A stretch of 64,000 bases of DNA from Rhodococcus sp. OK519 (GTDB lineage Bacteria; Actinomycetota; Actinomycetes; Mycobacteriales; Mycobacteriaceae): positions 124,001-188,000 of the forward strand of contig NZ_QAOW01000003.1 in assembly GCF_003051005.1 (NCBI RefSeq). The letters run 5' to 3'. The notes beneath the pieces are model-generated. The model searched no databases. It saw only the letters and a program-made list of their open reading frames with translations, and was not told the DNA's origin. Position numbers and translations under genes: made by a program. Each line of letters starts with the position of its first letter. Position 1 is the first letter of the stretch. Below, piece by piece: positions 1,559-42,406 of this stretch.

Positions 1559-2983
1559 TCAGGACGCCGGCGGATACGGCAGTCGACTACTGAAGTCGAC
1601 GTCCACGCGCACCGGGCGTCCGATCTGGGGAAACGCCCGCTGTGCGCAATTCGTCCGCTCGCAGATCTTGCAGCCGGCACCGATCGGGACCGGTGACATC
1701 TGCTCGTCCAGGCGCAGGCCACGCGAGTAGACCAGCCTGTCGGCGTGCGTGATGTCGCAACCGAGGCCGATGGCGAAGCTGCGCTCGGATGTCCCGTACG
1801 GCCGGGCGCCGTCGTCCGTCGTCCGGGCGATCCACAGATAGGTGCGCCCGTCCGGCATCTGCGCCACCTGCGTGACGATGCGACCCGGGGTACCGAACGC
1901 GTCGTGCACCACCCACAGCGGGCAACTGCCGCCGACACGAGAGAAATGGAATGCTGTGGCGGACTGACGCTTCGAGATGTTTCCCGCCCGGTCGGTGCGG
2001 ACGAAGAAGAAGGGCACCCCGCGCCGGTTCGGACGCTGCATCGTCGAGAGCCTGTGACAGACCGTCTCGAAGCCGACCTCGAACTGCAGCGCGAGCATCT
2101 CGATGTCGTAGTGCAACCGCTCCGCGGCGTCGAGAAACTGGGTGTACGGCAACAGCAATGCTCCCGCGAAGTAGTTCGCCAAGCCGATCTTGGCGAGCTC
2201 CCGGGCATTCTCGCTGAGACCCGCCGCCGACTCGAGTTGACGTTCGATGACCGGCGCCTGCGTGAGAAATGCGAGCTGCGTGGCGATCTGGAACGCACGC
2301 TGTCCGGGTGAAAGATGCCTCGAGAGAACGAGGATGCGATCGGTCGCGTCGTACACCCGCTTGGGACCGGGACGGTCCGGCGGATCGGTGCGCAATCGGA
2401 CGACGATGTCGTGCTCGGTTTCGAGCAATGCCGTCAGTTGCACGTCGAGCGACCCGATCTGCAGGCCGCTTTCGACGAACAGCCGCTCGGCGGCATCATC
2501 GAGTTCCGCGATGTGATTGTGCCTGTCGTAGAAGAAGTCCCGCACCTCCTCGAACGGCATCGGCACAGCGCCGCCTGCTTCTGAGGCGGCCGGGGTTGCG
2601 AGGTGTGCACTGAACTGTTCCAGCTGATCGGTCGCGGCCTGCAGCCTGCGATGGACGCCGACGAGTGCCTGCCCGATCTCCGGCATGCGCGCGACGAACT
2701 CCTCGATGGTCGACGCAGACGGCGCCGGAGTTCCCAGAGTCGTCAACACGTCCTGGAGGTCGGCGGCCAATCGTGCATCCGACTCTGCGGCGAAGAAGTG
2801 GGCGTCGAGGTCGAACATCGCATTGAGCTTGAGGAGCACCGGGACGGTGAGGGGCCGCTGATCGTTCTCGAGCTGATTCACGTAGCTCGCCGACAGGTCC
2901 AAGACGCGCGCGAGCGCGAGCTGCGTCAGACCGCGTTCCTCACGTAACCGACGCAAGCGCGGACCGCCGTAGATCTTCTGCAC
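1559..2983 (-). CDS. prpR: PrpR/RamB-type XRE regulator of propionate metabolism
   Basis: This 474-residue short-chain-fatty-acid regulator has an N-terminal XRE helix-turn-helix (about residues 12-60, with SYVNQLE as recognition helix) and a long C-terminal sensor domain. It ends with a CxxCxxxxC motif (about residues 438, 441 and 446), and an upstream Cys lies in a CPLWVVH stretch. This fits the iron-sulfur-binding cysteines reported for M. tuberculosis PrpR. I chose the GTG at 2983 because AAAGGA sits 7 bases upstream. An in-frame GTG at 3010 has no ribosome site. The gene is divergent from prpDBC, the arrangement of Rv1129c/Rv1130-1131, so it is the likely activator of the methylcitrate operon. 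Confidence 0.88.
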
Positions 2984-3038
2984 CGTCGTGTCCTTTCCAG
3001 TCGCCTTCACTCAAGCACAACCGACGGCATTCACACCA

Positions 3039-3047
3039 TTCGCAAAC
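3039..3047. promoter_or_regulatory. Possible PrpR/RamB half-site in the divergent prp promoter
   Basis: TTCGCAAAC differs by one base from the TTTGCAAAC-type sequence I recall for mycobacterial PrpR and corynebacterial RamB. It sits between the divergent prpR and prpD starts. Only one clear copy is visible, so this is weak. Confidence 0.35.
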
Positions 3048-3154
3048 CTGGCCGATTCACACCACAAACTTACGCATATTCAGGCTGTTTACCTCCGATC
3101 TACTCGTGCATACGCTGCGAAAACAGCAGAAACAGCTCACCGGAGGACACAGCG

Positions 3155-4657
3155 TTGAAGACACATCCCGTTCGCACCCACCTCTCCGCAGAGGACTTCC
3201 CCCAGAACGAGCATCTCGCGTGGAAGGTCGCCGAGGTCGCCACTGACGAGGTCGAGGTCCCCGCCGACACCGCCGAGATGATCGTCAACCGCATCATCGA
3301 CAATGCGTCCGTCGCTGCCGCCTCCCTGACCCGCCGACCGGTCTCGAACGCCCGCGCGCAGACCCTGTCCCACCCGTACTCGCCGGGTTCGACCGTGTTC
3401 GGTGTGGGCGGCACGTTCTCGCCGGAGTGGGCTGCCTGGGCCAACGGCGTCGCCGTACGCGAGCTCGACTTCCACGACACATTCCTCGCTGCCGAGTACT
3501 CGCACCCGGGCGACAACATCCCGCCGATCCTGGCGGTCGCACAGCATGCGGGCCGTACCGGTGCCGACCTCGTCCGGGGCCTCGCCACCGGTTACGAGAT
3601 CCAGGTGGATCTGGTTCGCTCGATCTGCCTGCACGAGCACAAGATCGACCACGTAGCGCATCTCGGTCCGTCCGCAGCTGCCGGCATCGGCACCCTCCTC
3701 GGGCTCGACACCGAGACCGTGTACCAGGCCGTCGGACAGGCTCTGCACACCACCACCGCGACCCGCCAGTCCCGCAAGGGCGAGATCTCGAGCTGGAAGG
3801 CCTACGCCCCGGCTTTTGCCGGCAAGATGGCCGTCGAGGCCGTCGACCGCGCGATGCGCGGCGAGGGCGCTCCGTCCCCGATCTGGGAGGGCGAGGACGG
3901 CGTCATCGCGTGGCTGCTCGGCGGACCGAAGTCCGAATACGCTGTGCCGCTGCCCGGCCCGGGCGAGGCCAAGCGCGCCATCCTGGACACGTACACCAAG
4001 GAGCATTCGGCCGAGTACCAGAGCCAGGCGCCCATCGACCTGGCCCGCCGGATGCGGGGCCGGATCGGCGACCTCGACCAGATCGCGTCGATCGTCCTGC
4101 ACACCAGCCACCACACCCACGTCGTGATCGGCACCGGCTCGAACGACCCGCAGAAGTTCGATCCGACCGCGAGTCGCGAGACCCTCGACCACTCGGTGAT
4201 GTACATCTTCGCGGTCGCGCTGCAGGACGGCACGTGGCACCACGAGCGCTCGTACGCACCCGAGCGCGCGCAGCGTCCCGACACGATCGAGCTGTGGAAG
4301 AAGATTTCCACCGCCGAGGACCCGGAGTGGACCCGCCGCTACCACTCGACCGACCCCACCGAGAAGGCCTTCGGTGCCCGCGCCGAGGTCACGCTGAAGA
4401 GCGGCGAGGTCGTCGTCGACGAGCTGGCGATCGCGGACGCACATCCGCTGGGCGCGCGCCCCTTCTCTCGGGATCAGTACATCGCGAAGTTCCGCACACT
4501 CGCCGAGGGCATCGTCGCCCCCGCCGAGCAGGACCGCTTCCTCGATGCGGCTCAGCGCACTCCCGAGCTGAAGGCCGGTGAGCTGAACCAGCTCACGTTC
4601 ACCGTCACCGACGAGGTCCTCGCCCGCGCCCCGAAGTCGCCGAAGGGACTCTTCTGA
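3155..4657 (+). CDS. prpD: 2-methylcitrate dehydratase PrpD
   Basis: The 500-residue MmgE/PrpD-family enzyme dehydrates 2-methylcitrate to 2-methyl-cis-aconitate in propionyl-CoA breakdown. Family blocks visible include [32 protein letters not shown] and the [13 protein letters not shown] segment. It starts at TTG (3155), supported by CGGAGGA 7 bases upstream. It is followed after one base by prpB and then prpC, so all three are one operon. It lies divergent from prpR, which should control it. Confidence 0.95.
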
Positions 4658-4658
4658 C

Positions 4659-5573
4659 ATGACCGGACTCATCGCCGCCACCACGTCGGCCACCGACAAG
4701 CGGATTGCCTTCCGTGCCGGGCTGACGTCCGGAAAGATCCAGCGCCTGCCGGGTGCGATCAATCCGTTGACCGCCAAACTGATCCAGGAGATCGGGTTCG
4801 AGGGCGTCTATGTCTCCGGCGGCGCGTTCTCCGCCGGGCTCGGCCTGCCGGACATCGGCCTGACCACACTCACCGAGGTCGTCGCGCACAGCCGTCAGAT
4901 CGCCGGTGTCACCGATCTTCCGGTGCTGATCGACGCCGACACCGGATTCGGCGAGCCCATGTCGGCGGCCCGCACCGTCCTCGCCGCCGAGGACGCCGGC
5001 ATCGCCGGCCTGCACCTCGAGGATCAGGTCAACCCCAAGCGCTGCGGTCACCTCGACGGCAAGGCCATCGTGCCGACGGGTGAGATGGTCCGTCGTCTGC
5101 GTGCCGCAGTCACGGCCCGACGCGACCCGAACTTCGTGATCTGCGCCCGCACCGACGCCGCCGGGATCGACGGCATCGATGCGGCGATCGAACGCGCCAA
5201 GGCATACGCCGACGCGGGTGCAGACCTCATCTTCACCGAGGCACTGAACACCGAGGCCGACTTCGCGAAGTTCCGTGCTGCAGTGGATATCCCGCTGCTG
5301 GCGAACATGACCGAGTTCGGTAAGTCGCAGCTGATTCCGGCACAGACTCTCGAGGAGATCGGCTTCAACGCAGTGATCTACCCAGTCACCACCCTGCGTC
5401 TGGCGATGGGCGCCATCGAGCGCGGTCTGCGGGAGATTCACGAGACGGGCACTCAGGAGGGTCAGCTCGACCAGATGCAGACCCGCTCGCGGCTGTACGA
5501 ACTGCTCGAGTACGAGCGCTACAACGAGTTCGATTCCGGAGTCTTCAACTTCACGCTCGGAGGGAACCAATGA
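4659..5573 (+). CDS. prpB: 2-methylisocitrate lyase PrpB
   Basis: The 304-residue member of the isocitrate lyase/PEP mutase superfamily cleaves 2-methylisocitrate to pyruvate and succinate. The active-site signature KRCGH occupies residues 127-131, with the catalytic Cys at 129. A metal-binding acidic patch (DADTGFGE, about 92-99) is intact. The start is 1 base after the prpD stop, and the stop overlaps the prpC start by 4 bases, showing tight translational coupling. The length fits PrpB and is far shorter than glyoxylate-cycle isocitrate lyase. Confidence 0.95.
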   Translation: MTGLIAATTSATDKRIAFRAGLTSGKIQRLPGAINPLTAKLIQEIGFEGVYVSGGAFSAGLGLPDIGLTTLTEVVAHSRQIAGVTDLPVLIDADTGFGEPMSAARTVLAAEDAGIAGLHLEDQVNPKRCGHLDGKAIVPTGEMVRRLRAAVTARRDPNFVICARTDAAGIDGIDAAIERAKAYADAGADLIFTEALNTEADFAKFRAAVDIPLLANMTEFGKSQLIPAQTLEEIGFNAVIYPVTTLRLAMGAIERGLREIHETGTQEGQLDQMQTRSRLYELLEYERYNEFDSGVFNFTLGGNQ

Positions 5574-6691
5574 CCAATGCAGTCCCGACGATCTACAAAG
5601 GCCTGGCCGGCGTCGTCGTCGACACCACCGCGATCTCCAAGGTGGTTCCCGAGACCAATTCGCTGACCTACCGCGGTTACGCGGTGCAGGACCTGGCGGC
5701 GAACTGCAGCTTCGAGCAGGTCGCGTACCTCCTGTGGAACGGTGAGCTGCCCTCGGACGCCCAACTGGAGCTGTTCTGCCAGCGTGAGCGGGCAAGCCGC
5801 CGTGCAGATCGGTCGCTGCTCTCACTGGTGACGAAGATGCCCGACAACTGCCACCCGATGGACGTGGTCCGCACCGCGATCAGCTACCTCGGCGCGGAGG
5901 ACCCGGACGAGTGGGACAACTCCTCGAAGGCGAATCGCGAGAAGGCACTTCGCATGATGGCGGTTCTGCCGACCATCGTGGCAGCCGATCATCGCCGTCG
6001 TCACGGACTCGACCCGATCGCCCCGCACAGCCACCTCGGCTTCGCCGAGAACTTTCTCAACATGTGCTTCGGCGAGATCCCCGAACCGGAGATCGTCAAG
6101 GCATTCGAGGTGTCGCTCATCCTTTACGCGGAGCACAGCTTCAACGCCTCCACCTTCGCGGCCCGCGTAGTCACCTCGACGCTGTCCGACATCTACAGTG
6201 CGGTCACCGCCGCGATCGGCACCCTCAAGGGCCCGCTGCACGGCGGCGCCAACGAGGCGGTCATGCACGACATGATCGAGATCGCCGAACCCGCGTGTGC
6301 CGAGGCCTGGATGAAGGACAAGCTGGCCCGTAAGGAAAAGGTCATGGGCTTCGGGCACCGGGTCTACAAGAACGGCGACTCGCGCGTCCCGACGATGCGC
6401 CAGGCCTTCTTCGACGTCGCCTCGAAGACCGGTGGCGAGAAGTGGGTCGAGATGTACGAGATCCTCGAGCGCACCATGAACGACGCCACGGGCATCAAAC
6501 CCAATCTCGACTTCCCCACCGGGCCCGCCTACTACCTGATGGGCTTCGACATCGAGGTGTTCACTCCCATCTTCGTGATGAGCCGCATCACCGGATGGAC
6601 TGCACACATCATCGAACAGGGCGAATCCAACGCCCTGATCCGACCGCTCAGCGAATACACCGGAGTGCCCCAGCGCTCGGTGGTGGCCTGA
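5570..6691 (+). CDS. prpC: 2-methylcitrate synthase PrpC
   Basis: The 373-residue citrate-synthase-family enzyme condenses propionyl-CoA with oxaloacetate. Visible family motifs are GPLHGGANE (first active-site His region), VMGFGHRVYKNGDSR (second His and substrate Arg) and a C-terminal FDIEVFTP segment with the catalytic Asp. The short length and the operon position after prpB identify the methylcitrate rather than the main citrate synthase. The ATG overlaps the prpB stop (ATGA). A large inverted repeat follows 10 bases after the stop. Confidence 0.95.
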   Translation: MTNAVPTIYKGLAGVVVDTTAISKVVPETNSLTYRGYAVQDLAANCSFEQVAYLLWNGELPSDAQLELFCQRERASRRADRSLLSLVTKMPDNCHPMDVVRTAISYLGAEDPDEWDNSSKANREKALRMMAVLPTIVAADHRRRHGLDPIAPHSHLGFAENFLNMCFGEIPEPEIVKAFEVSLILYAEHSFNASTFAARVVTSTLSDIYSAVTAAIGTLKGPLHGGANEAVMHDMIEIAEPACAEAWMKDKLARKEKVMGFGHRVYKNGDSRVPTMRQAFFDVASKTGGEKWVEMYEILERTMNDATGIKPNLDFPTGPAYYLMGFDIEVFTPIFVMSRITGWTAHIIEQGESNALIRPLSEYTGVPQRSVVA

Positions 6692-6790: not shown

Positions 6791-7588
6791 TCACGTCCTC
6801 GGTCCGCACCAGTCTGCGAGATGCTGAGGAGCCCTGTGGAAGTGGACGGACGGAACTCCGTCCGGACCTGTGGAGACAGTGGATCGGACCTTGTAGACGT
6901 CGCTCACGAGATCCTCGGTGAGGACGTCCAGCGGTGTGCCGGTCGCGACGATCCGCCCCTCCTGCAGCACCACCAGCCGATCGCAGTACATCGCAGCGAG
7001 GTTGAGGTCGTGAAGCGCGATGAAACTCGTCGTCCGCAACCCCGCGACCAGTTCGAGGATCTCGAGTTGGTGCTGGATATCGAGGTGATTGGTCGGTTCG
7101 TCGAGCAACAGGTGCTCGGGTTCCTGTGCGAGTGCTCGGGCAATCTGCGCGCGCTGACGTTCCCCTCCGGAAAGCGTGTGCCAAGCGCGACCGCGCCTCT
7201 CCGACATGCCCGTACCGGCCAGCGCCTTCTGGATCGCCGCATCGTCGACGGCCGGGTCGGATCCGAACACCCCGCGATGTGGAATCCGTCCCAGCCGCAC
7301 AACGTCGAGCACCGTGACGTCGACGTCGGTGTGGGCGTGCTGGTCCACCATCGCAACCCGGCGGGCGATCTGTCGGCGTCGCACGGTTCGGATGTCCGCG
7401 TCGTCGAGCGTGACCGTGCCGGTGTCAGGTGCCGCGATACCCGCGAGGAGTCGCAGGAGCGACGACTTGCCCGACCCGTTGGGTCCGAGGAGCCCGACGG
7501 TCTCGCCGCGCTCGGCGACGACGGTGACGCCGTCCAGCACGAGGTGGCCGTCGCGGCTCCATCCGACATCTTTCGCGGACAAAGTCAT
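6791..7588 (-). CDS. ABC transporter ATP-binding protein (FecE/BtuD type) of the B12-riboswitch operon
   Basis: The 265-residue ATPase has Walker A GPNGSGKSS, signature LSGGERQR, Walker B LLLDEPTNHLD and the His-switch LHDLN. These are typical of siderophore/cobalamin importers. The ATG at 7588 is preceded by GAGGAG and overlaps the permease stop by 4 bases. A much longer open frame upstream in this phase runs antisense-like through the permease and is not coding. It would power uptake through the adjacent permease. As last gene of the operon it should fall under the riboswitch at 11.6 kb. The substrate is a corrinoid, cobalt chelate or other cofactor; see the binding proteins. Confidence 0.9.
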   Translation of the reverse strand: MTLSAKDVGWSRDGHLVLDGVTVVAERGETVGLLGPNGSGKSSLLRLLAGIAAPDTGTVTLDDADIRTVRRRQIARRVAMVDQHAHTDVDVTVLDVVRLGRIPHRGVFGSDPAVDDAAIQKALAGTGMSERRGRAWHTLSGGERQRAQIARALAQEPEHLLLDEPTNHLDIQHQLEILELVAGLRTTSFIALHDLNLAAMYCDRLVVLQEGRIVATGTPLDVLTEDLVSDVYKVRSTVSTGPDGVPSVHFHRAPQHLADWCGPRT

Positions 7589-8640
7589 TCGCTTCTCCTC
7601 ATCCGGAACAGGATCAATGCGAACGCCGGTACACCGACCAGTGCGGTCACCACACCGACCGGAATCTCCTGTGGTGCGAAGAGGGTTCGAGCGATCGCGT
7701 CCACCCACACCATGAAGATCGCACCGATCAGCGCGGTGGCGGGAAGGAGCCGACTGTGTCTGGTTCCCACCAGGAATCGAGCCGCGTGCGGGAGAACGAG
7801 TCCGACGAAGCCGATTGCTCCGGCCGCACTGACCAGCGCCGCGGTGATGAGCGCCGTGACGGTCAGGAGTACCATGCGCACACGGCGAACGGAGATGCCG
7901 AGGGTCGCGGCCATGTCGTTCCCGAAGGTGAACGCGTCCAAAGCCGGAGCGTGGTACAGGCACACAACGATGCCGATCAAGACCACGACCGAACACAGCA
8001 GGACGTCGGTCCACCCCACGCCGCTGAGGGATCCGAGCAACCAGAACAGCACACCGCGGGTCTGTTCCGCGTCCGCCGACGAAATTACAATGAACGACGT
8101 CAACGCCGAGAACAGCTGCGTCCCAGCCACACCTGCGAGAACGACGCGCGAGGTGCCGCCGCCTGCGCCCGCCGCGAGTAACATCACGAGCGCGAACGAC
8201 ACGACCGCGCCGAGGAACGCACCCGCCGACAGCGAGACGATGCCGCCACCGATGCCGAGCACCACGACCGCCACCGCACCGGTCGATGCGCCCGAGGAGA
8301 TGCCGAGCACGAACGGGTCCGCGAGCGGATTACGCAACAACGACTGCATGATGGCGCCGCACAGCGCCAGCCCCGCGCCACACACCGCGGCCAGCATGGT
8401 GCGCGGAAGCCGCAGTTCCCACACGATGCCGTCCTTGATCCGACTCAGTCCGGACGAACCGATCCCCCAGTGCTCCAACACCACTGCGTACACGTCCCGC
8501 ACGGACAGGTCGGCGGGGCCGAGCGTTATCGCGAGCGCGATCGACAGAACGAGCGCGGCACCGCCACCGACGTAGGCCGCGCCGAGCAGGGGCCTGGAGT
8601 CGAGCCGCGCTGTGCGGTGACTCAATTCGTCAGGCCCCAA
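7585..8640 (-). CDS. FecCD/BtuC-type ABC permease
   Basis: The 351-residue membrane protein has about ten hydrophobic segments and FecCD hallmarks: LRLPRTMLAAVCGAGLALCG, NPLADPFVLGISSGA and GFVGLVLPHAAR with a coupling helix. The 351-residue frame opens at a TTG inside the end of the preceding binding-protein gene (19-base overlap). An in-frame TTG at 8625 is an alternative, and neither has a strong ribosome site. It overlaps the ATPase by 4 bases. Permeases of this class import siderophores, heme or vitamin B12. The riboswitch upstream argues for a B12-linked substrate. Confidence 0.88.
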   Translation of the reverse strand: MGPDELSHRTARLDSRPLLGAAYVGGGAALVLSIALAITLGPADLSVRDVYAVVLEHWGIGSSGLSRIKDGIVWELRLPRTMLAAVCGAGLALCGAIMQSLLRNPLADPFVLGISSGASTGAVAVVVLGIGGGIVSLSAGAFLGAVVSFALVMLLAAGAGGGTSRVVLAGVAGTQLFSALTSFIVISSADAEQTRGVLFWLLGSLSGVGWTDVLLCSVVVLIGIVVCLYHAPALDAFTFGNDMAATLGISVRRVRMVLLTVTALITAALVSAAGAIGFVGLVLPHAARFLVGTRHSRLLPATALIGAIFMVWVDAIARTLFAPQEIPVGVVTALVGVPAFALILFRMRRSE

Positions 8641-9671
8641 CCGCGAAGCGCTGCCGACACCTTCTCGATGCCGTCGATCGTGCGGATGGAGGGGTTCATG
8701 TCGCCGCCGTTGACCACGATGTAGCGCTTGTCGCGGACGGCGTCGATGTTCCGGGTGACCGGGTTGGACTCGAGGAACGCGATCTTGCTGTCCAGCGCGT
8801 CACCGTCGATGCTGCGCCGGCTCAGATCGCCCAGGACGAGGGCGGTCGGGTTCCGGTCCGCGACGGACTCCCAACTCACCTGCGGCCATTCGTCGGTAGT
8901 GTCGGCGAAGACATTGGCTGCCCCGACGGCACCGGCGATGATCCCGGACGACCCACAGCAGCCGGCCATGTACGGGGTCTTGGTGTCGGCGAACCAGAAG
9001 GCGAGCGGAACGCCCGCGGCCTGTACGTCGGCCGACGCCTTCTCGAACCGCTGCTCCAGTTCGGCGACGAAGGCTTCACCGCGATCGCGGACGTCGAAGA
9101 TTGCCGCCAGGTCCCGAATCTCCTGGTAGACCGCCTCGATCCGCAACGGCTCGGAGCGGGCGCCGTCCGCGTTCGACGCGGACGATTCCTTGCCGTCGCA
9201 GCCGTTGTCGGTGGGGGCGAGATAGGTGGGGACGCCGAGGCTCTCGAACTGATCTCTCCCCGCGTCGCCCCCGTCACCGAACGTCGAGGCGAACGATGCC
9301 GAGACGAAGTCCGGTTCGGTGTCGAGGACGACCTCGAGGGAGGGCTTGTTGTCAGCCAGACGGGGGACCTTCGCGTTGTCGGCGGCGAGGTTGTCGCGGA
9401 CGGGATCGGTCCACGTCGCGGTGCCGACCATCCGGTCGGCGAGACCGAGGGACAGCAGGATCTCGGTCGACCCCTGGTTGAGGGACACCGCGCGCTGCGG
9501 GGGCGCATCGATCGTGATCTGTCTGCCGCAGTTCTCGATCGTCAGCGGAAATCTGGACGCAGAGGACGTCGGATGGGCGGCCGTCGTCTCCGCGGAGGAC
9601 GAGCATCCGGTCAGGACGAGGGCCGCGGCGGCGGTGAGGGAAACGCCGATGTGTCGGACGGTTTGGCGCAT
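8622..9671 (-). CDS. Periplasmic binding lipoprotein (second paralogue) of the B12-riboswitch transporter
   Basis: This BtuF/FepB-fold substrate-binding protein starts at ATG 9671 (AAGGAG about 11 bases upstream). The signal peptide ends in the lipobox LTGC with the lipidated Cys at about residue 23. The mature part has two lobes. A central TKTPYMAGCCG motif with adjacent cysteines is shared with the paralogue at 10491-11498, as are the C-terminal YIVV and D-MNPSIR stretches. Cysteine pairs in this position are unusual for siderophore binders. A related three-gene cassette in Actinobacteria has been proposed to carry coenzyme F420-0, which is another possible ligand. The context here favours a corrinoid or cobalt compound. 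Confidence 0.85.
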   Translation of the reverse strand: MRQTVRHIGVSLTAAAALVLTGCSSSAETTAAHPTSSASRFPLTIENCGRQITIDAPPQRAVSLNQGSTEILLSLGLADRMVGTATWTDPVRDNLAADNAKVPRLADNKPSLEVVLDTEPDFVSASFASTFGDGGDAGRDQFESLGVPTYLAPTDNGCDGKESSASNADGARSEPLRIEAVYQEIRDLAAIFDVRDRGEAFVAELEQRFEKASADVQAAGVPLAFWFADTKTPYMAGCCGSSGIIAGAVGAANVFADTTDEWPQVSWESVADRNPTALVLGDLSRRSIDGDALDSKIAFLESNPVTRNIDAVRDKRYIVVNGGDMNPSIRTIDGIEKVSAALRGWGLTN

Positions 9672-9738
9672 GAAGAGTAGAGCTCCTTGCTCAGGGCCTG
9701 AATTATGTAAACCGGGGATGGGTGGGGCCAACCGCGGG

Positions 9739-10494
9739 CTACGCCACTCCGTAGACGACGTAGTCGTCGAAGAGTTGCCACACGGTGCCGGACTCGGCGA
9801 ATCCCGCTTGGCGGAGCGCTGCCAGCTGGAATTTCACGGTGGTCGGCGGTGACGCGTCTCGCCCGGCGAAGCGGCGGGTCCGCTCCCCCTGCAGAGGGCC
9901 GATGTCCGGGTGCGCTCCCAGCAGATTCCACCAGGCATCCCACTCGTCGGCGCCCTCGACGAAGCTGCGCTTCTGCGTTGCACTGTCGTGCCGCGCCGCC
10001 CAGGACGCGATGTGCTGCGTGCGTTCGTCGAACCGGAAGTGGTCACCGTTGAGTAGGAGGCCACCGCGTGCCAGTAGCGATCTGACCTGGCCGTACACGT
10101 CGACCAGCTGGGCCGGGAGGAGCCAGTGAAGCGCCGTCGTCGAGACCACTGCCTGCGGACGGTCCTCGAGCTGGTCCCTCAGCTGGGCACTCCAGAGCGG
10201 ATCGACGAGATCGGCATCGACGATCTGCACCCGGTCTCCGAACCCGGCCAGGTGCTTACGTGCGAGCGCGAGAAGCATGGGGTCGTAGTCGATCGCAATG
10301 ACACGGGCCTCGGGGAACCGCGACAGAAGCCGCGAGGCGAGAGACCCTGGGCCACAAGCGAGATCGACGGCGGTGAAGCTGGTGCCGACCGCGAGTTCGA
10401 GGGCGCCGAGCATCACCTCGAACCGAGCCTCACGATGGGCGATGTAAGCAGCTTGTTGTCGATCCCACCGCTCGACCAGTTCGGTGTGGTTCAT
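9739..10494 (-). CDS. Class I SAM-dependent methyltransferase embedded in the transporter operon
   Basis: The 251-residue protein has a complete SAM-binding fold: motif I VDLACGPGSLASRL (about residues 43-56), the acidic loop IAIDYDP and the post-II DADLVDP. A STTALHWLLP motif resembles UbiE/trans-aconitate-type methyltransferases. It has no signal peptide and should be cytoplasmic. The start overlaps the upstream binding-protein stop by 4 bases (ATGA). The next binding protein starts 67 bases downstream of its stop. An enzyme between two binding-protein genes under B12 control suggests it modifies the imported compound or a ligand of it. The substrate is unknown. Confidence 0.82.
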   Translation of the reverse strand: MNHTELVERWDRQQAAYIAHREARFEVMLGALELAVGTSFTAVDLACGPGSLASRLLSRFPEARVIAIDYDPMLLALARKHLAGFGDRVQIVDADLVDPLWSAQLRDQLEDRPQAVVSTTALHWLLPAQLVDVYGQVRSLLARGGLLLNGDHFRFDERTQHIASWAARHDSATQKRSFVEGADEWDAWWNLLGAHPDIGPLQGERTRRFAGRDASPPTTVKFQLAALRQAGFAESGTVWQLFDDYVVYGVA

Positions 10495-11498
10495 CGCGTC
10501 ACTCCGAGATCCCGCAGCCCGGCGGCAATTTGCTCGATCCCTTGGACATTCCTGATGGAGGGGTCCATCGCGGTACCACTGATGACGATGTAGCGCTTGT
10601 TGCGGACGGCAGTCAACCGGCTCGTCACAGGATCCGATTCGAGGAACCGGATCTTCTCGTCCACACTGTCACCGTCGCCGCCCCGCCCCAGATCCGCGAG
10701 CACAAGCACCGTGGGATCACGGTCGAGCACACTCTCCCAACCGATTTCGGGCCAGAGCTGACGGTTGTCGGCGAAAGCGTTTTGCGCTCCTACCTGCTGT
10801 GTCATGATTCCCGGCGCCCCGCAGCATCCCGCGAAGTATGGGGTCTTGGTGCCGTCGTACCACCACGCGAGCGACACGTTCGACGCATCGAGTCCGCCTG
10901 CTGCAGCCTGCGCACGACCACGCAGCTCGGCAATCAGCTCGTCACCACGATCGTGAACTTCGAAGAGGGTGGCGATGTCCTCGATCTCCGAGTACAGGTC
11001 GGCGAGCGTCGACTCGGTCGCCTGGAGTGCCTCCTGGCCTCCACATTCGCTCGACGACTGGTAGGTGGCGATACCCATGTCCGTGAACCGCTGACGGTCG
11101 GCGATGCCCTCGTCGGTGAAGGTGTAGTCGAATGTGGTGTAGACGAAGTCGGGCTCACGGTCGAGGACTGCCTCGAACGACGGGAACTCCACATCGAAGT
11201 TGTGCACTCGCGACGCTGCCCCCGCCAAATCGGGTAGCACGGGATCGTCGCCGTAGGCGAGGCCGGCGATCCGGTCCTCGAGTCCGAGACTCAGCAGCAG
11301 TTCGGCGGCAGGTTGATTCACCGCGATCGCCCGCTGGATCGGTTCGTCGACCGCCACTGTCGTCTCGCAGTTGGTCAGCTCGGTCGTCGCTCGAGGCGAG
11401 TCGTCTGCCCCGCTCTCGGAGCCGCTGCAACCCACAGCGGTGAACACGGCCGCGATTGCTGTGGCTCCGGCGATCTTCCGGACACGTTGGCGCATCAC
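10491..11498 (-). CDS. Periplasmic binding lipoprotein (first paralogue), first gene behind the B12 riboswitch
   Basis: The 335-residue BtuF/FepB-type lipoprotein is paralogous to the gene at 8622-9671 over its full length. Both start with an MRQ-VR signal peptide, carry a lipobox (AVGC here), the TKTPYFAGCCG cysteine motif and a C-terminal KRYIVISG strand. The GTG at 11498 has an AGGA 9 bases upstream; an ATG follows immediately at 11495. The leader in front carries cobalamin-riboswitch elements, so expression should fall when cobalamin is plentiful. Two non-identical binding proteins for one permease suggest two related ligands. Confidence 0.87.
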   Translation of the reverse strand: MMRQRVRKIAGATAIAAVFTAVGCSGSESGADDSPRATTELTNCETTVAVDEPIQRAIAVNQPAAELLLSLGLEDRIAGLAYGDDPVLPDLAGAASRVHNFDVEFPSFEAVLDREPDFVYTTFDYTFTDEGIADRQRFTDMGIATYQSSSECGGQEALQATESTLADLYSEIEDIATLFEVHDRGDELIAELRGRAQAAAGGLDASNVSLAWWYDGTKTPYFAGCCGAPGIMTQQVGAQNAFADNRQLWPEIGWESVLDRDPTVLVLADLGRGGDGDSVDEKIRFLESDPVTSRLTAVRNKRYIVISGTAMDPSIRNVQGIEQIAAGLRDLGVTR

Positions 11499-11570
11499 AC
11501 ATCAGCTTCCTGCGGGCGCTGCACGCGAGCGGTCCGCACGATCATGCCGGGGACAGAAGGGTCACCCAGC

Positions 11571-11672
11571 CCAGCAGGTCGTCGGACTCGAGGCGATGCC
11601 GCCCCATACCGTTGCGCGTCAGTTCCGGATTCACACCGGATTCCACCTGATCCCGATTGTCGGGATTGCCTG
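11571..11672 (-). ncRNA. Cobalamin riboswitch (B12 element)
   Basis: Read on the minus strand, the leader contains the conserved B12-box series: GGAATCCGGTGTGAATCCGG, then AACTGACGCGCAACGGTA, then GAGTCCGACGACCTGC (11589-11574). These match the order and spacing of the class I core (GGTGnnAATCC, CCGC-AACnGT, GA--ACCTGC). It lies about 75 bases upstream of the first binding-protein gene. The intervening bases would hold the expression platform. The match is from memory of the consensus; a covariance-model search would settle it. Confidence 0.82.
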
Positions 11673-11683
11673 GTAGCGCGAAA

Positions 11684-11713
11684 ATCTAACAGTAGTTTCC
11701 GTGGCTTCGACAA
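11684..11713 (-). promoter_or_regulatory. Candidate promoter for the riboswitch operon
   Basis: On the minus strand, TTGTCG (11713-11708) and TTAGAT (11689-11684) are separated by 18 bases just ahead of the riboswitch core. Both resemble SigA boxes. Confidence 0.4.
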
Positions 11714-32632: not shown

Positions 32633-32706
32633 TGGCCAGGGCCGGGATCGAACCGGCGACCTTCCGCTTTTCAGGCGGACGCTCGTACCAACTGAGCTAC
32701 CTGGCC
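32633..32706 (-). tRNA. tRNA-Phe(GAA), copy 1
   Basis: The 74-base cloverleaf has a perfect 7-bp acceptor stem, anticodon GAA in loop CTGAAAA and T-loop TTCGATC. CCA is not encoded. It is the last gene of a five-tRNA minus-strand cluster. Confidence 0.95.
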
Positions 32707-32761
32707 GGAAGGCACCCGAAACGAATGCCGATCGCGCCGCATCCTTTCGGACACAGAAAAG

Positions 32762-32835
32762 CGACCCTGACGGGACTCGAACCCGCGACCTCCGCCGTGA
32801 CAGGGCGGCGCGCTAACCAACTGCGCTACAGGGCC
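32762..32835 (-). tRNA. tRNA-Asp(GTC), copy 1
   Basis: The 74-base cloverleaf has anticodon GTC in CTGTCAC and T-loop TTCGAGT. The acceptor stem is complete with one G-U pair. It is identical in the mature part to the copy at 33025-33098. Confidence 0.95.
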
Positions 32836-32894
32836 TTGCTGCACTCCTTGCGGAGCGTTTCCTTCTTTCACCGAAGTCCGAAGACTCCATGTGG

Positions 32895-32968
32895 TGGCCA
32901 GAGCCGGGATCGAACCGGCGACCTTCCGCTTTTCAGGCGGACGCTCGTACCAACTGAGCTACCTGGCC
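32895..32968 (-). tRNA. tRNA-Phe(GAA), copy 2
   Basis: Nearly identical to copy 1. It differs by one base in the acceptor 3' strand, giving a G-U pair, and is followed by an encoded CCA (32892-32894). Confidence 0.95.
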
Positions 32969-33024
32969 GGGCGGCACCCGAACCGAATGCCTATATCGCG
33001 CTTCACCGTTTCCGATGAAACAAG

Positions 33025-33098
33025 CGACCCTGACGGGACTCGAACCCGCGACCTCCGCCGTGACAGGGCGGCGCGCTAACCAACTGCGCTACAGGGCC
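33025..33098 (-). tRNA. tRNA-Asp(GTC), copy 2
   Basis: Complete 74-base cloverleaf, anticodon GTC. With the Phe gene that follows it makes one unit of an Asp-Phe tandem duplication with a period of about 263 bases. Confidence 0.95.
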
Positions 33099-33146
33099 TT
33101 GCTGTAGTGCTATTCAACTGTACTTCTCACCTTGCGGCGAGAAGCG

Positions 33147-33219
33147 TACCCCCTACGGGATTCGAACCCGCGCTACCGCCTTGAAAGGGCGGCGTCCTAG
33201 GCCGCTAGACGAAGGGGGC
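33147..33219 (-). tRNA. tRNA-Glu(TTC)
   Basis: The 73-base cloverleaf has anticodon TTC in CTTTCAA. The acceptor stem GCCCCCT pairs with AGGGGGT. It is the first gene of the Glu-Asp-Phe-Asp-Phe cluster. Confidence 0.95.
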
Positions 33220-36201: not shown

Positions 36202-36274
36202 TGCCCCCAGTAGGGCTCGAACCTACGACCTGCGGATTAAAAGTCCGTAGCTCTACCAACTGAGCTATAGGGGC
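36202..36274 (-). tRNA. tRNA-Lys(TTT)
   Basis: The 73-base cloverleaf has anticodon TTT in loop CTTTTAA. The acceptor stem GCCCCTA pairs with TGGGGGC. D and T arms are intact and CCA is not encoded. Confidence 0.95.
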
Positions 36275-41452: not shown

Positions 41453-42406
41453 ATGTCGAGAGACCTCACTCAGCTCGAGCTGCTCCAGGAGCTGCTGCCG
41501 GTCGCCGAAGAGAACGTCAATCGACATCTCTCCATGGCCAAGGATTGGCATCCGCACGATTACGTCCCGTGGGACGAGGGCCGTAACTTCGCCGCGATGG
41601 GCGGCGAGGACTGGGATCCCGAGCAGTCCCGACTGGGCGAGGTCGCGAAGGCCGCGATGATCACCAACCTGCTGACCGAGGACAACCTGCCCTCCTACCA
41701 CCGGGAGATCGCGGAGAACTTCTCGCGCGACGGCGCGTGGGGCACCTGGGTCGGGCGCTGGACCGCCGAGGAGAACCGCCACGGCATCGTGATGCGCGAC
41801 TACCTCGTGGTCACCCGCGGCGTCGATCCCGTGGAACTCGAGAACGCCCGCATGATCCACATGACCAACGGCTACAGCTCGCCGGCCGGCGACAGCGTCG
41901 GACTGCTCCACTCCGTCTCGTACGTGACGTTCCAGGAACTGGCGACCCGCGTCTCGCACCGCAACACCGGCAAGGCGTGCCAGGACCCGGTCGCCGACAA
42001 GATGCTCCAGCGCATCGCGGCCGACGAGAACCTGCACATGATCTTCTACCGGAACATCTGCGGCGCCGCGATGGACATCGCTCCGGACCAGACGCTCAAG
42101 GCCGTGACCGACATCATCATGAACTTCGAGATGCCCGGCGCCGGAATGCCGAACTTCCGCCGCAACGGTGTCCTGATGGCCAAGCACGGCATCTACGACC
42201 TGCGTCAGCACCTGGAGGAGGTCGTGATGCCGGTGCTGCGGAAGTGGAACATCTTCGACCGCACCGACTTCACCGCCCGCGGCGAGGACACCCGCGAGGA
42301 GCTCGCCACCTTCCTCGAGAAGCTCGAACTGCAGGCCACCAAGTTCGAGGAGATGCGTGACCGCTCGCTCGCACGCGACGCCGCTCGCGCCGAGAAGGCC
42401 TCCTGA
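41453..42406 (+). CDS. desA: Soluble acyl-ACP desaturase, DesA1 type
   Basis: The 317-residue di-iron ferritin-like desaturase has iron ligands in TEDN (Glu76), EENRH (Glu106, Glu107, His110), FQE (Glu162) and DENLH (Glu192, His195). In mycobacteria DesA1 introduces double bonds into ACP-bound chains for mycolic acid synthesis. N-terminal NRHLSMAKDWHPHDYVPW strongly resembles Rv0824c. It needs an electron donor that is not in the window. GGAGG precedes the ATG. It opens a segment collinear with Rv0824c to Rv0816c and is followed by a strong terminator. Confidence 0.93.
   Translation: MSRDLTQLELLQELLPVAEENVNRHLSMAKDWHPHDYVPWDEGRNFAAMGGEDWDPEQSRLGEVAKAAMITNLLTEDNLPSYHREIAENFSRDGAWGTWVGRWTAEENRHGIVMRDYLVVTRGVDPVELENARMIHMTNGYSSPAGDSVGLLHSVSYVTFQELATRVSHRNTGKACQDPVADKMLQRIAADENLHMIFYRNICGAAMDIAPDQTLKAVTDIIMNFEMPGAGMPNFRRNGVLMAKHGIYDLRQHLEEVVMPVLRKWNIFDRTDFTARGEDTREELATFLEKLELQATKFEEMRDRSLARDAARAEKAS

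Follow-up and report, generated by a model that had tools for sequence, protein, structure and literature searches.

The closest described relatives of the system reported here are the opine-zincophore clusters of Actinobacteria (PMC7438024), which bring together a FecCD permease, a substrate-binding protein (SBP) of family PF01497, an ATPase and a PF13649-type methyltransferase; in the part of that report cited here, the actinomycete clusters with a FecCD importer only also hold an extra PF13649 methyltransferase, for which tailoring of the chelator was proposed. The same metal-chelate context is predicted for the operon analysed here, which lies in a 64,000-nucleotide stretch of Rhodococcus sp. 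OK519 (contig NZ_QAOW01000003.1, positions 124,001 to 188,000; hereafter the window) and encodes an S-adenosylmethionine (SAM)-dependent methyltransferase (MT), two substrate-binding lipoproteins (SBP1 and SBP2), a permease and an ATPase. The window operon differs from those clusters, as the cited part presents them, in its B12 riboswitch, in the GCCG motif of its two SBPs, and in that chelator-synthesis genes were not seen alongside; the likeness of the methyltransferases is one of description. The siderophore transporter EitABC of E. coli plasmids belongs to the same SBP clade, and its SBP, permease and ATPase are 32-55% identical to those of the window. On the E. coli plasmid (L057) no methyltransferase adjoins it, and since the gene after eitABC encodes a major facilitator superfamily (MFS) transporter, an Eit-type four-gene set was rejected as the source of MT.

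An earlier note, made from the sequence alone, had described five minus-strand genes with MT between two binding lipoproteins that share a GCCG motif; gene calls and Pfam matches confirmed the arrangement (Table 1), and AGCCG is present in both SBP1 and SBP2. The genes follow the riboswitch in the order SBP1, MT, SBP2, permease, ATPase (6791-11495), with 4-base overlaps at SBP1/MT, SBP2/permease and permease/ATPase and a gap of 67 bases between MT and SBP2; gene starts in the window were set by eye and with a gene-calling script, and the genes of the fetched loci were called by a simple script, not a standard annotator. Both SBPs carry a lipobox-like N-terminal Cys (AVGC and LTGC, by eye), and PF01497, PF01032 and PF00005 all occur in the one operon, the domain set of a FecCD metal-chelate importer. 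No named family takes in the transporter proteins, which match the F420-0, Eit, BtuF and BtuC models, in every case below cut-off (for the EitABC models NF052484/NF052485, 188 and 231 of 640 bits, and 314 of 485 bits).

Table 1 Features of the operon and its leader in the window.
Feature	Coordinates	Strand	Evidence
Predicted cobalamin riboswitch aptamer RF00174, compact form without the GCCACTG-bearing arm	11556-11688	-	cmscan and conservation
SBP1, substrate-binding lipoprotein of the riboswitch/GCCG clade, module partner of MT	10491-11495	-	PF01497 69 bits; tree; AGCCG
MT, class I SAM-dependent methyltransferase, importer-associated family	9739-10494	-	PF13649 48.5 bits; family alignment; tree
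SBP2, second GCCG lipoprotein	8622-9671	-	PF01497 105 bits; tree
FecCD-type permease, TTG start as called	7585-8625	-	PF01032 305 bits; gene call
ABC ATPase	6791-7588	-	PF00005 118 bits; gene call

The cobalamin-riboswitch-like leader recognised in the earlier note was borne out by the Infernal search that it called for: Rfam cmscan of the whole window matched RF00174 in the leader with 41.0 bits (E 6.2e-7, model 1-189; gathering cut-off 31.5 bits). Aligned with the leaders of two congeners, it has 90% mean column identity; the riboswitches there score 37.4 (G010) and 46.9 bits (G012). Folded alone, the window leader was not more stable than shuffled sequences (z -0.14), so that the evidence for a riboswitch is the covariance-model score together with conservation. 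The operon is thereby predicted to sit under a cobalamin riboswitch, in which the GCCACTG arm of five Rhodococcus-type switches (98.6-100.6 bits) is missing, as it is in both congeners. The M. tuberculosis ppe2 riboswitch, which binds B12 and is described, in the cited part of the report, without the P8-P12 extension (PMC11260477), likewise lacks a peripheral arm; it stands before a different downstream gene, and binding of B12 by the window form is a prediction.

The earlier note knew of no description of this set, which proved not to be singular: SBP-MT-permease-ATPase operons are spread across Actinobacteria, and a methyltransferase beside FecCD importers had already been noted (PMC7438024, in the part cited). 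Genome contigs were searched with the MT alignment, and importer genes near MT were sought by tblastn, the queries being the window proteins plus a small number of variants. Among the best 80 of 533 confirmed relatives, retained among the matches listed, 34 had FecCD-type importer genes beside MT and 12 had Opp/Nik-type genes directly before it. This neighbourhood analysis, also called for in the note, found that SBP, MT, permease and ATPase co-occur widely; the second SBP is not part of the commonest FecCD order, which is SBP-MT-permease-ATPase with a single SBP. Two SBPs with MT occur also in Patulibacter (L074) and, in a different order, in two Aeromicrobium genomes (L072, L073), all three riboswitch-headed, and in G437 and G370 a riboswitch heads MT and SBP1 alone. 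SBP2 is closest (67.5% identity) to an SBP encoded in an SBP2-permease-ATPase set without MT on the plasmid of Rhodococcus M8-50 (L055), where Rfam found no riboswitch and a CbiMNQO-like cobalt transporter lies about 10 kb away. Because such riboswitch-headed MT-SBP1 pairs and this plasmid set both exist, we read SBP1 and MT as a movable module that joined a pre-existing SBP2-type importer.

A census of 401 genomes of the GTDB family (E up to 1e-25, six candidates scored per genome) gave 38 MT loci in 37 genomes, all scanned with Rfam. Twenty-five are importer-linked, 23 with RF00174 upstream and two with a Zur-like box only: ten have SBP1, MT, permease and ATPase under a riboswitch (the window included; SBP2 too in three); two are MT-SBP1 pairs with a riboswitch; ten are OppA-MT-OppB-OppC-OppDF operons with a riboswitch, encoding Opp/Nik-type importers, which are unrelated to FecCD; one is MT-permease-ATPase-SBPc, with a weak riboswitch (34.7 bits) about 0.7 kb upstream; and two are SBP-MT-permease-ATPase operons with the Zur-like box. 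The MT family is coupled, in these sequences, to two unrelated importer types; the one Opp/Nik-type SBP scanned had a nickel-binding model as its best match, below cut-off. In the majority of FecCD-type operons, and in the census's ten Opp-type operons, the MT gene is flanked by those for SBP and permease; in cyanobacterial Opp-type and PERM-SBP-ATPase-MT operons it is the last gene. In 25 of the 38 family loci MT is accompanied by an importer of one or other of two unrelated ATP-binding cassette (ABC) types, and every time a B12 riboswitch or a Zur-like box is present, so that the imported ligand is the probable substrate of MT.

The relatives with Zur-like boxes link the operon to zinc regulation. 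A Zur box, TGAAAATGATTTTCA, has been published for Actinobacteria (PMC2823685, PMC5472717, in the parts cited), and related operons carry a TGAAAATNATTTTCA-type site like those of the Zur regulon of C. glutamicum, S. coelicolor and M. smegmatis (PMC2823685, PMC5472717 and PMC7174638, likewise in part); the window operon differs in that no Zur-like box (up to 3 mismatches) was found in the 20 kb around it (L061). Twenty SBP-MT-permease-ATPase loci, grouped by this feature, have a Zur-like palindrome over the SBP start codon (Micromonosporaceae, Streptomyces, Streptosporangiaceae, Cellulomonas, Brachybacterium and one Micrococcales bin); 16 of the palindromes are within 3 mismatches of TGAAAATNATTTTCA, and the weaker ones (L086, L090, L091, L094) were identified by eye. 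In a scan of 93 loci, 25 sites had no more than 3 mismatches, whereas shuffled sequences led to an expectation of about 7. With the stricter TGAAAAYSRTTTTCA (up to 1 mismatch), five Zur-type genomes had 12 sites and the reversed pattern none: 5 sites at the MT operon, 5 beside zinc-starvation-type genes and 2 of unclear context. The five non-MT sites, from four genomes, stand beside L33/S14 paralogues that lack Cys, GTPases of the CobW type (ZigA and MRF being their best models, below cut-off) or a zinc SBP resembling AztC (also below cut-off), so that TGAAAAYSRTTTTCA precedes zinc-starvation genes in four of the five genomes, G056 having the MT-operon site alone. No cobalamin riboswitch was found in the 11 of the 20 Zur-type loci that were scanned with Rfam.

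The two regulatory types also separate by their SBPs. In a tree of 36 SBPs, with group labels assigned from the gene-context results before tree building, the 20 Zur rows were parted from the 8 riboswitch rows (6 SBP1 and 2 SBP2; 8 rows of neither group uncounted) by a single change with 100/99 support. GCCG was present in 16/16 distinct MT-linked riboswitch SBP1s and in 0/22 Zur-type SBPs, the pairs L070/L062 and L212/L071 each being entered once; as a strict rule for all riboswitch SBPs it was rejected, the alphaproteobacterial SBPs of the riboswitch clade, which have no MT, carrying GSNG and GRKG. These results are given as counts and tree changes, without p values, because related genomes are not independent. 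Two loci (L208:4842-5075 and L215:3223-3491, genomes G425 and G322) have both elements in series before SBP1-MT-permease-ATPase, the Zur-like box about 35 to 70 bases upstream of the riboswitch, an apparent joint control by zinc and B12. Homology with the operons that carry Zur-like operators is evident, and the best explanation is that the window system is a re-wired relative of the Zur-controlled version.

MT itself matches general methyltransferase models only, PF13649 first. Its nearest solved relatives by sequence are BelI and CysG (9FCE and 9FCD; E 2e-24 and 5e-20), which methylate the carboxylate of malate-type substrates with the aid of a metal held by a His-His-Asp motif (PMC11408123, in the part cited). 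As these are carboxyl O-methyltransferases, methylation of a carboxylate by MT is a reasonable guess; the MT family differs from them in its genomic role, and the His-His-Asp motif is not conserved. On a tree of 72 MTs, the labels of seven context groups cluster strongly (14 changes, against a shuffled mean of 47). Some importer operons encode, besides MT, another methyltransferase that is UbiE-like (L148:6297-6995; L127:590-1330, the latter assigned by sequence resemblance alone). M. smegmatis is reported to have a class I SAM methyltransferase under Zur repression, MSMEG_6055, whose expression rises 498-fold when zur is mutated (PMC7174638, in the part cited); a published operator, used as a pattern in looking for it, matched in 0/401 genomes.

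Several observations bear on the metal. CobJ/CbiH scored above cut-off in 8/8 riboswitch-type genomes and in 6/12 of the Zur-type genomes searched, and in 0/3 further genomes with an MT importer (L103, L117, L125; assembly gaps unchecked). None of NicO, CbiM and CbtA was found in the Aeromicrobium genome G042; absence of cobalt transporters was rejected as proof, since the window genome has CbiM and CbtA. A Chloroflexi locus (L116:169-10901) reads VWA-ChlI-CobN-CbiZ-MT-ZnuA-ATPase-ABC3 permease (ZnuABC-like; the ATPase named by eye). The plasmid and Chloroflexi loci and the cobalt/B12 genes favour cobalt and zinc chelates as cargo.

The window genome holds two more riboswitch-headed SBP operons and a riboswitch match below cut-off before cbtA, a redundancy of B12-controlled uptake that is as expected if the substrates differ. 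One of these operons (L068, G000:C3:252528-256630) is an SBP-permease-ATPase set that ends with a protein weakly like a 2Fe-2S thioredoxin-like ferredoxin and an Rdx (SelW-like) protein; the other (L069, G000:C1:823990-829940) has SBP and permease genes, a 578-residue ATP-binding protein and a divergent CobW-like GTPase; the match below cut-off (29.3 bits) lies just before the cbtA-type gene (L006, G000:C3:441975-443086).

From sequence and gene context we infer, with about even confidence, that the operon serves to take up a metal in complex with a small organic chelator and to methylate that chelator, the metal probably being cobalt for B12 synthesis. SBP1 would capture one loaded chelator (a metallophore, probably of the amino-carboxylate type) and SBP2 a second, related metal complex, both feeding the single FecCD permease/ATPase; in the cytoplasm, MT would transfer a methyl group to the chelator, with a carboxylate as the likeliest site, so that a redox-inert metal not releasable by reduction would be held less tightly and set free. 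The B12 riboswitch would shut the operon when B12 is plentiful, for which reason the metal would most likely be cobalt. Chelated zinc and cobalt(II), unlike iron, are not readily freed by reduction, so that importers of tight zinc or cobalt chelates need another release step, and MT, which is found with importers of two unrelated ABC classes and under zinc as well as B12 control, is a candidate for this step that can be put to the test. A bolder version, which we put forward as tentative and rather doubtful, would make this the first dedicated cobalt-metallophore uptake system: a B12-riboswitch descendant of a zinc-chelate importer, with a cobalt-tuned GCCG and an MT whose methyl-esterification of the chelator sets the redox-inert metal free, the same release chemistry serving FecCD and Opp importers. 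The word 'cobaltophore' was absent from the open-access literature searched, subscription journals and other wordings lying outside that scope. The clean change from Zur-like operator to B12 riboswitch, together with the two dual operons, offers a natural series for the switching of a regulator and perhaps of a metal, and existing annotations of genes as B12, siderophore or F420-0 transporters may have to be revised.

A number of results weigh against import followed by methylation of a cobalt chelate. Neither importer type was seen at MT, with these queries, in 34 of the best 80 of 533 relatives. Of the census loci without importer linkage, eight have no importer in the MT operon (in one, L220, a two-SBP importer lies 0.7 kb downstream, with no riboswitch match), and in the other five (L195, L196, L197, L198 and, partly visible, L226) MT is the last gene of an SbnA-like/aminotransferase/ATP-grasp/MFS cluster in which an importer was not seen. 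As MT ends five such clusters, which have the look of metallophore synthesis, it may tailor a chelator during synthesis. A methyltransferase with a His-His-Asp metal site was rejected, the motif not being kept: in 44 aligned MT-family members the invariant TALHW retains the first His (H123), the second position is Trp, and the third falls in a weak part of the alignment with no Asp conserved. The Zur and riboswitch labels are less clean on the MT tree than on the SBP tree (2 changes for Zur and 3 for riboswitch), because FecCD loci of other make-up intermingle. Serial zinc and B12 control in L208 and L215 would answer no obvious need of a pure cobalt importer, and further genes for cobalt transporters, one CbiM and two CbtA, are present in the window genome.

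A FecCD importer headed by a riboswitch is the classical pattern of B12 uptake, and a BtuFCD-like corrinoid importer, whose SBPs would bind cobalamin, cobinamide or other corrinoids and whose MT would modify the imported corrinoid, is unlikely in our judgement, though it survives best among the alternatives. Same-clade alphaproteobacterial SBPs without MT follow strong riboswitches (L056, L059), one of them in a Pseudosulfitobacter EitABC-like importer directly after a cob operon (L059:5566-8743), and the Chloroflexi MT lies between CbiZ and ZnuABC-like genes, near CobN. The Btu models were nevertheless matched poorly, BtuF with 22 (SBP1) and 36 (SBP2) of 234 bits and BtuC with 237 of 461 and 215 of 334. 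The earlier note had left a corrinoid, a cobalt chelate and a B12 precursor side by side as cargo; the cobalt chelate is the best supported of these, and the corrinoid is less likely because related operons have Zur-like operators, 6/12 of the genomes concerned lack CobJ/CbiH above cut-off, and the MT family also serves Opp/Nik-type importers.

That the importer carries a metallophore, with MT tailoring the chelator before export and not after import, seems to us improbable to a slightly greater degree. Such tailoring was proposed for the PF13649 methyltransferases of actinomycete zincophore clusters (PMC7438024, in the part cited), and the five synthesis-like clusters of the family agree with it; the first gene of one of them (L198) starts on a Zur-like palindrome (3 mismatches). 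The position of MT between SBP and permease genes speaks for the importer, and beside 15 of 16 importer operons no chelator-synthesis genes were seen (by eye, up to two called genes per side), for which reason we prefer action after import. The exception is Streptomyces L075, where genes for a MATE transporter, an SbnA-like protein, a decarboxylase and an SbnB-like protein (SbnA- and SbnB-like below cut-off) face the operon, which suggests a diaminopropionate-derived chelator there. At L091 a second FecCD-type importer lies beside the operon. The CntM-type opine dehydrogenase PF10100 matched in 0/34 genomes, but the controls were equally silent.

As a zinc enzyme, MetE acts as a sink for zinc, and a zinc-chelate importer under B12 control would make sense if low B12 turned MetE on and thereby raised the demand for zinc. 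This is a long shot that draws on the zinc-regulated look of the related operons and on the proximity of metE: the window opens in its 3' end (to base 398), about 6 kb from the operon, and its own riboswitch (89 bits) lies just outside, at G000:C3:121768-121987. A Zur-like box and a riboswitch in series (L208, L215) would also make sense if both zinc and B12 had to be low. Against this reading stand the lack of a Zur-like box around the window operon, the cobalt transporter near the plasmid importer, and the GCCG motif, which sets the MT-linked riboswitch SBP1s apart from the Zur-type SBPs and suggests a different ligand or metal. An F420-0 importer like the Actinobacterial TIGR03868/03869/03873 cassette was rejected as scarcely credible, and the doubt already voiced in the earlier note was justified: the three models are among the best NCBIfam matches, but all score below cut-off (224 for SBP1 and 225 for SBP2 of 392, 353 of 437 and 313 of 372 bits), and neither riboswitch nor Zur box points to F420.

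Elsewhere in the window, prpD-prpB-prpC-like genes (prpB and prpC by eye) with a divergent ScfR-domain regulator (1559-6691) look like an ordinary methylcitrate cluster. Transfer RNA genes are found at 32633-33219 (five) and 36202-36274 (one), and an ASdes small RNA match (79.8 bits) at 41771-41838.

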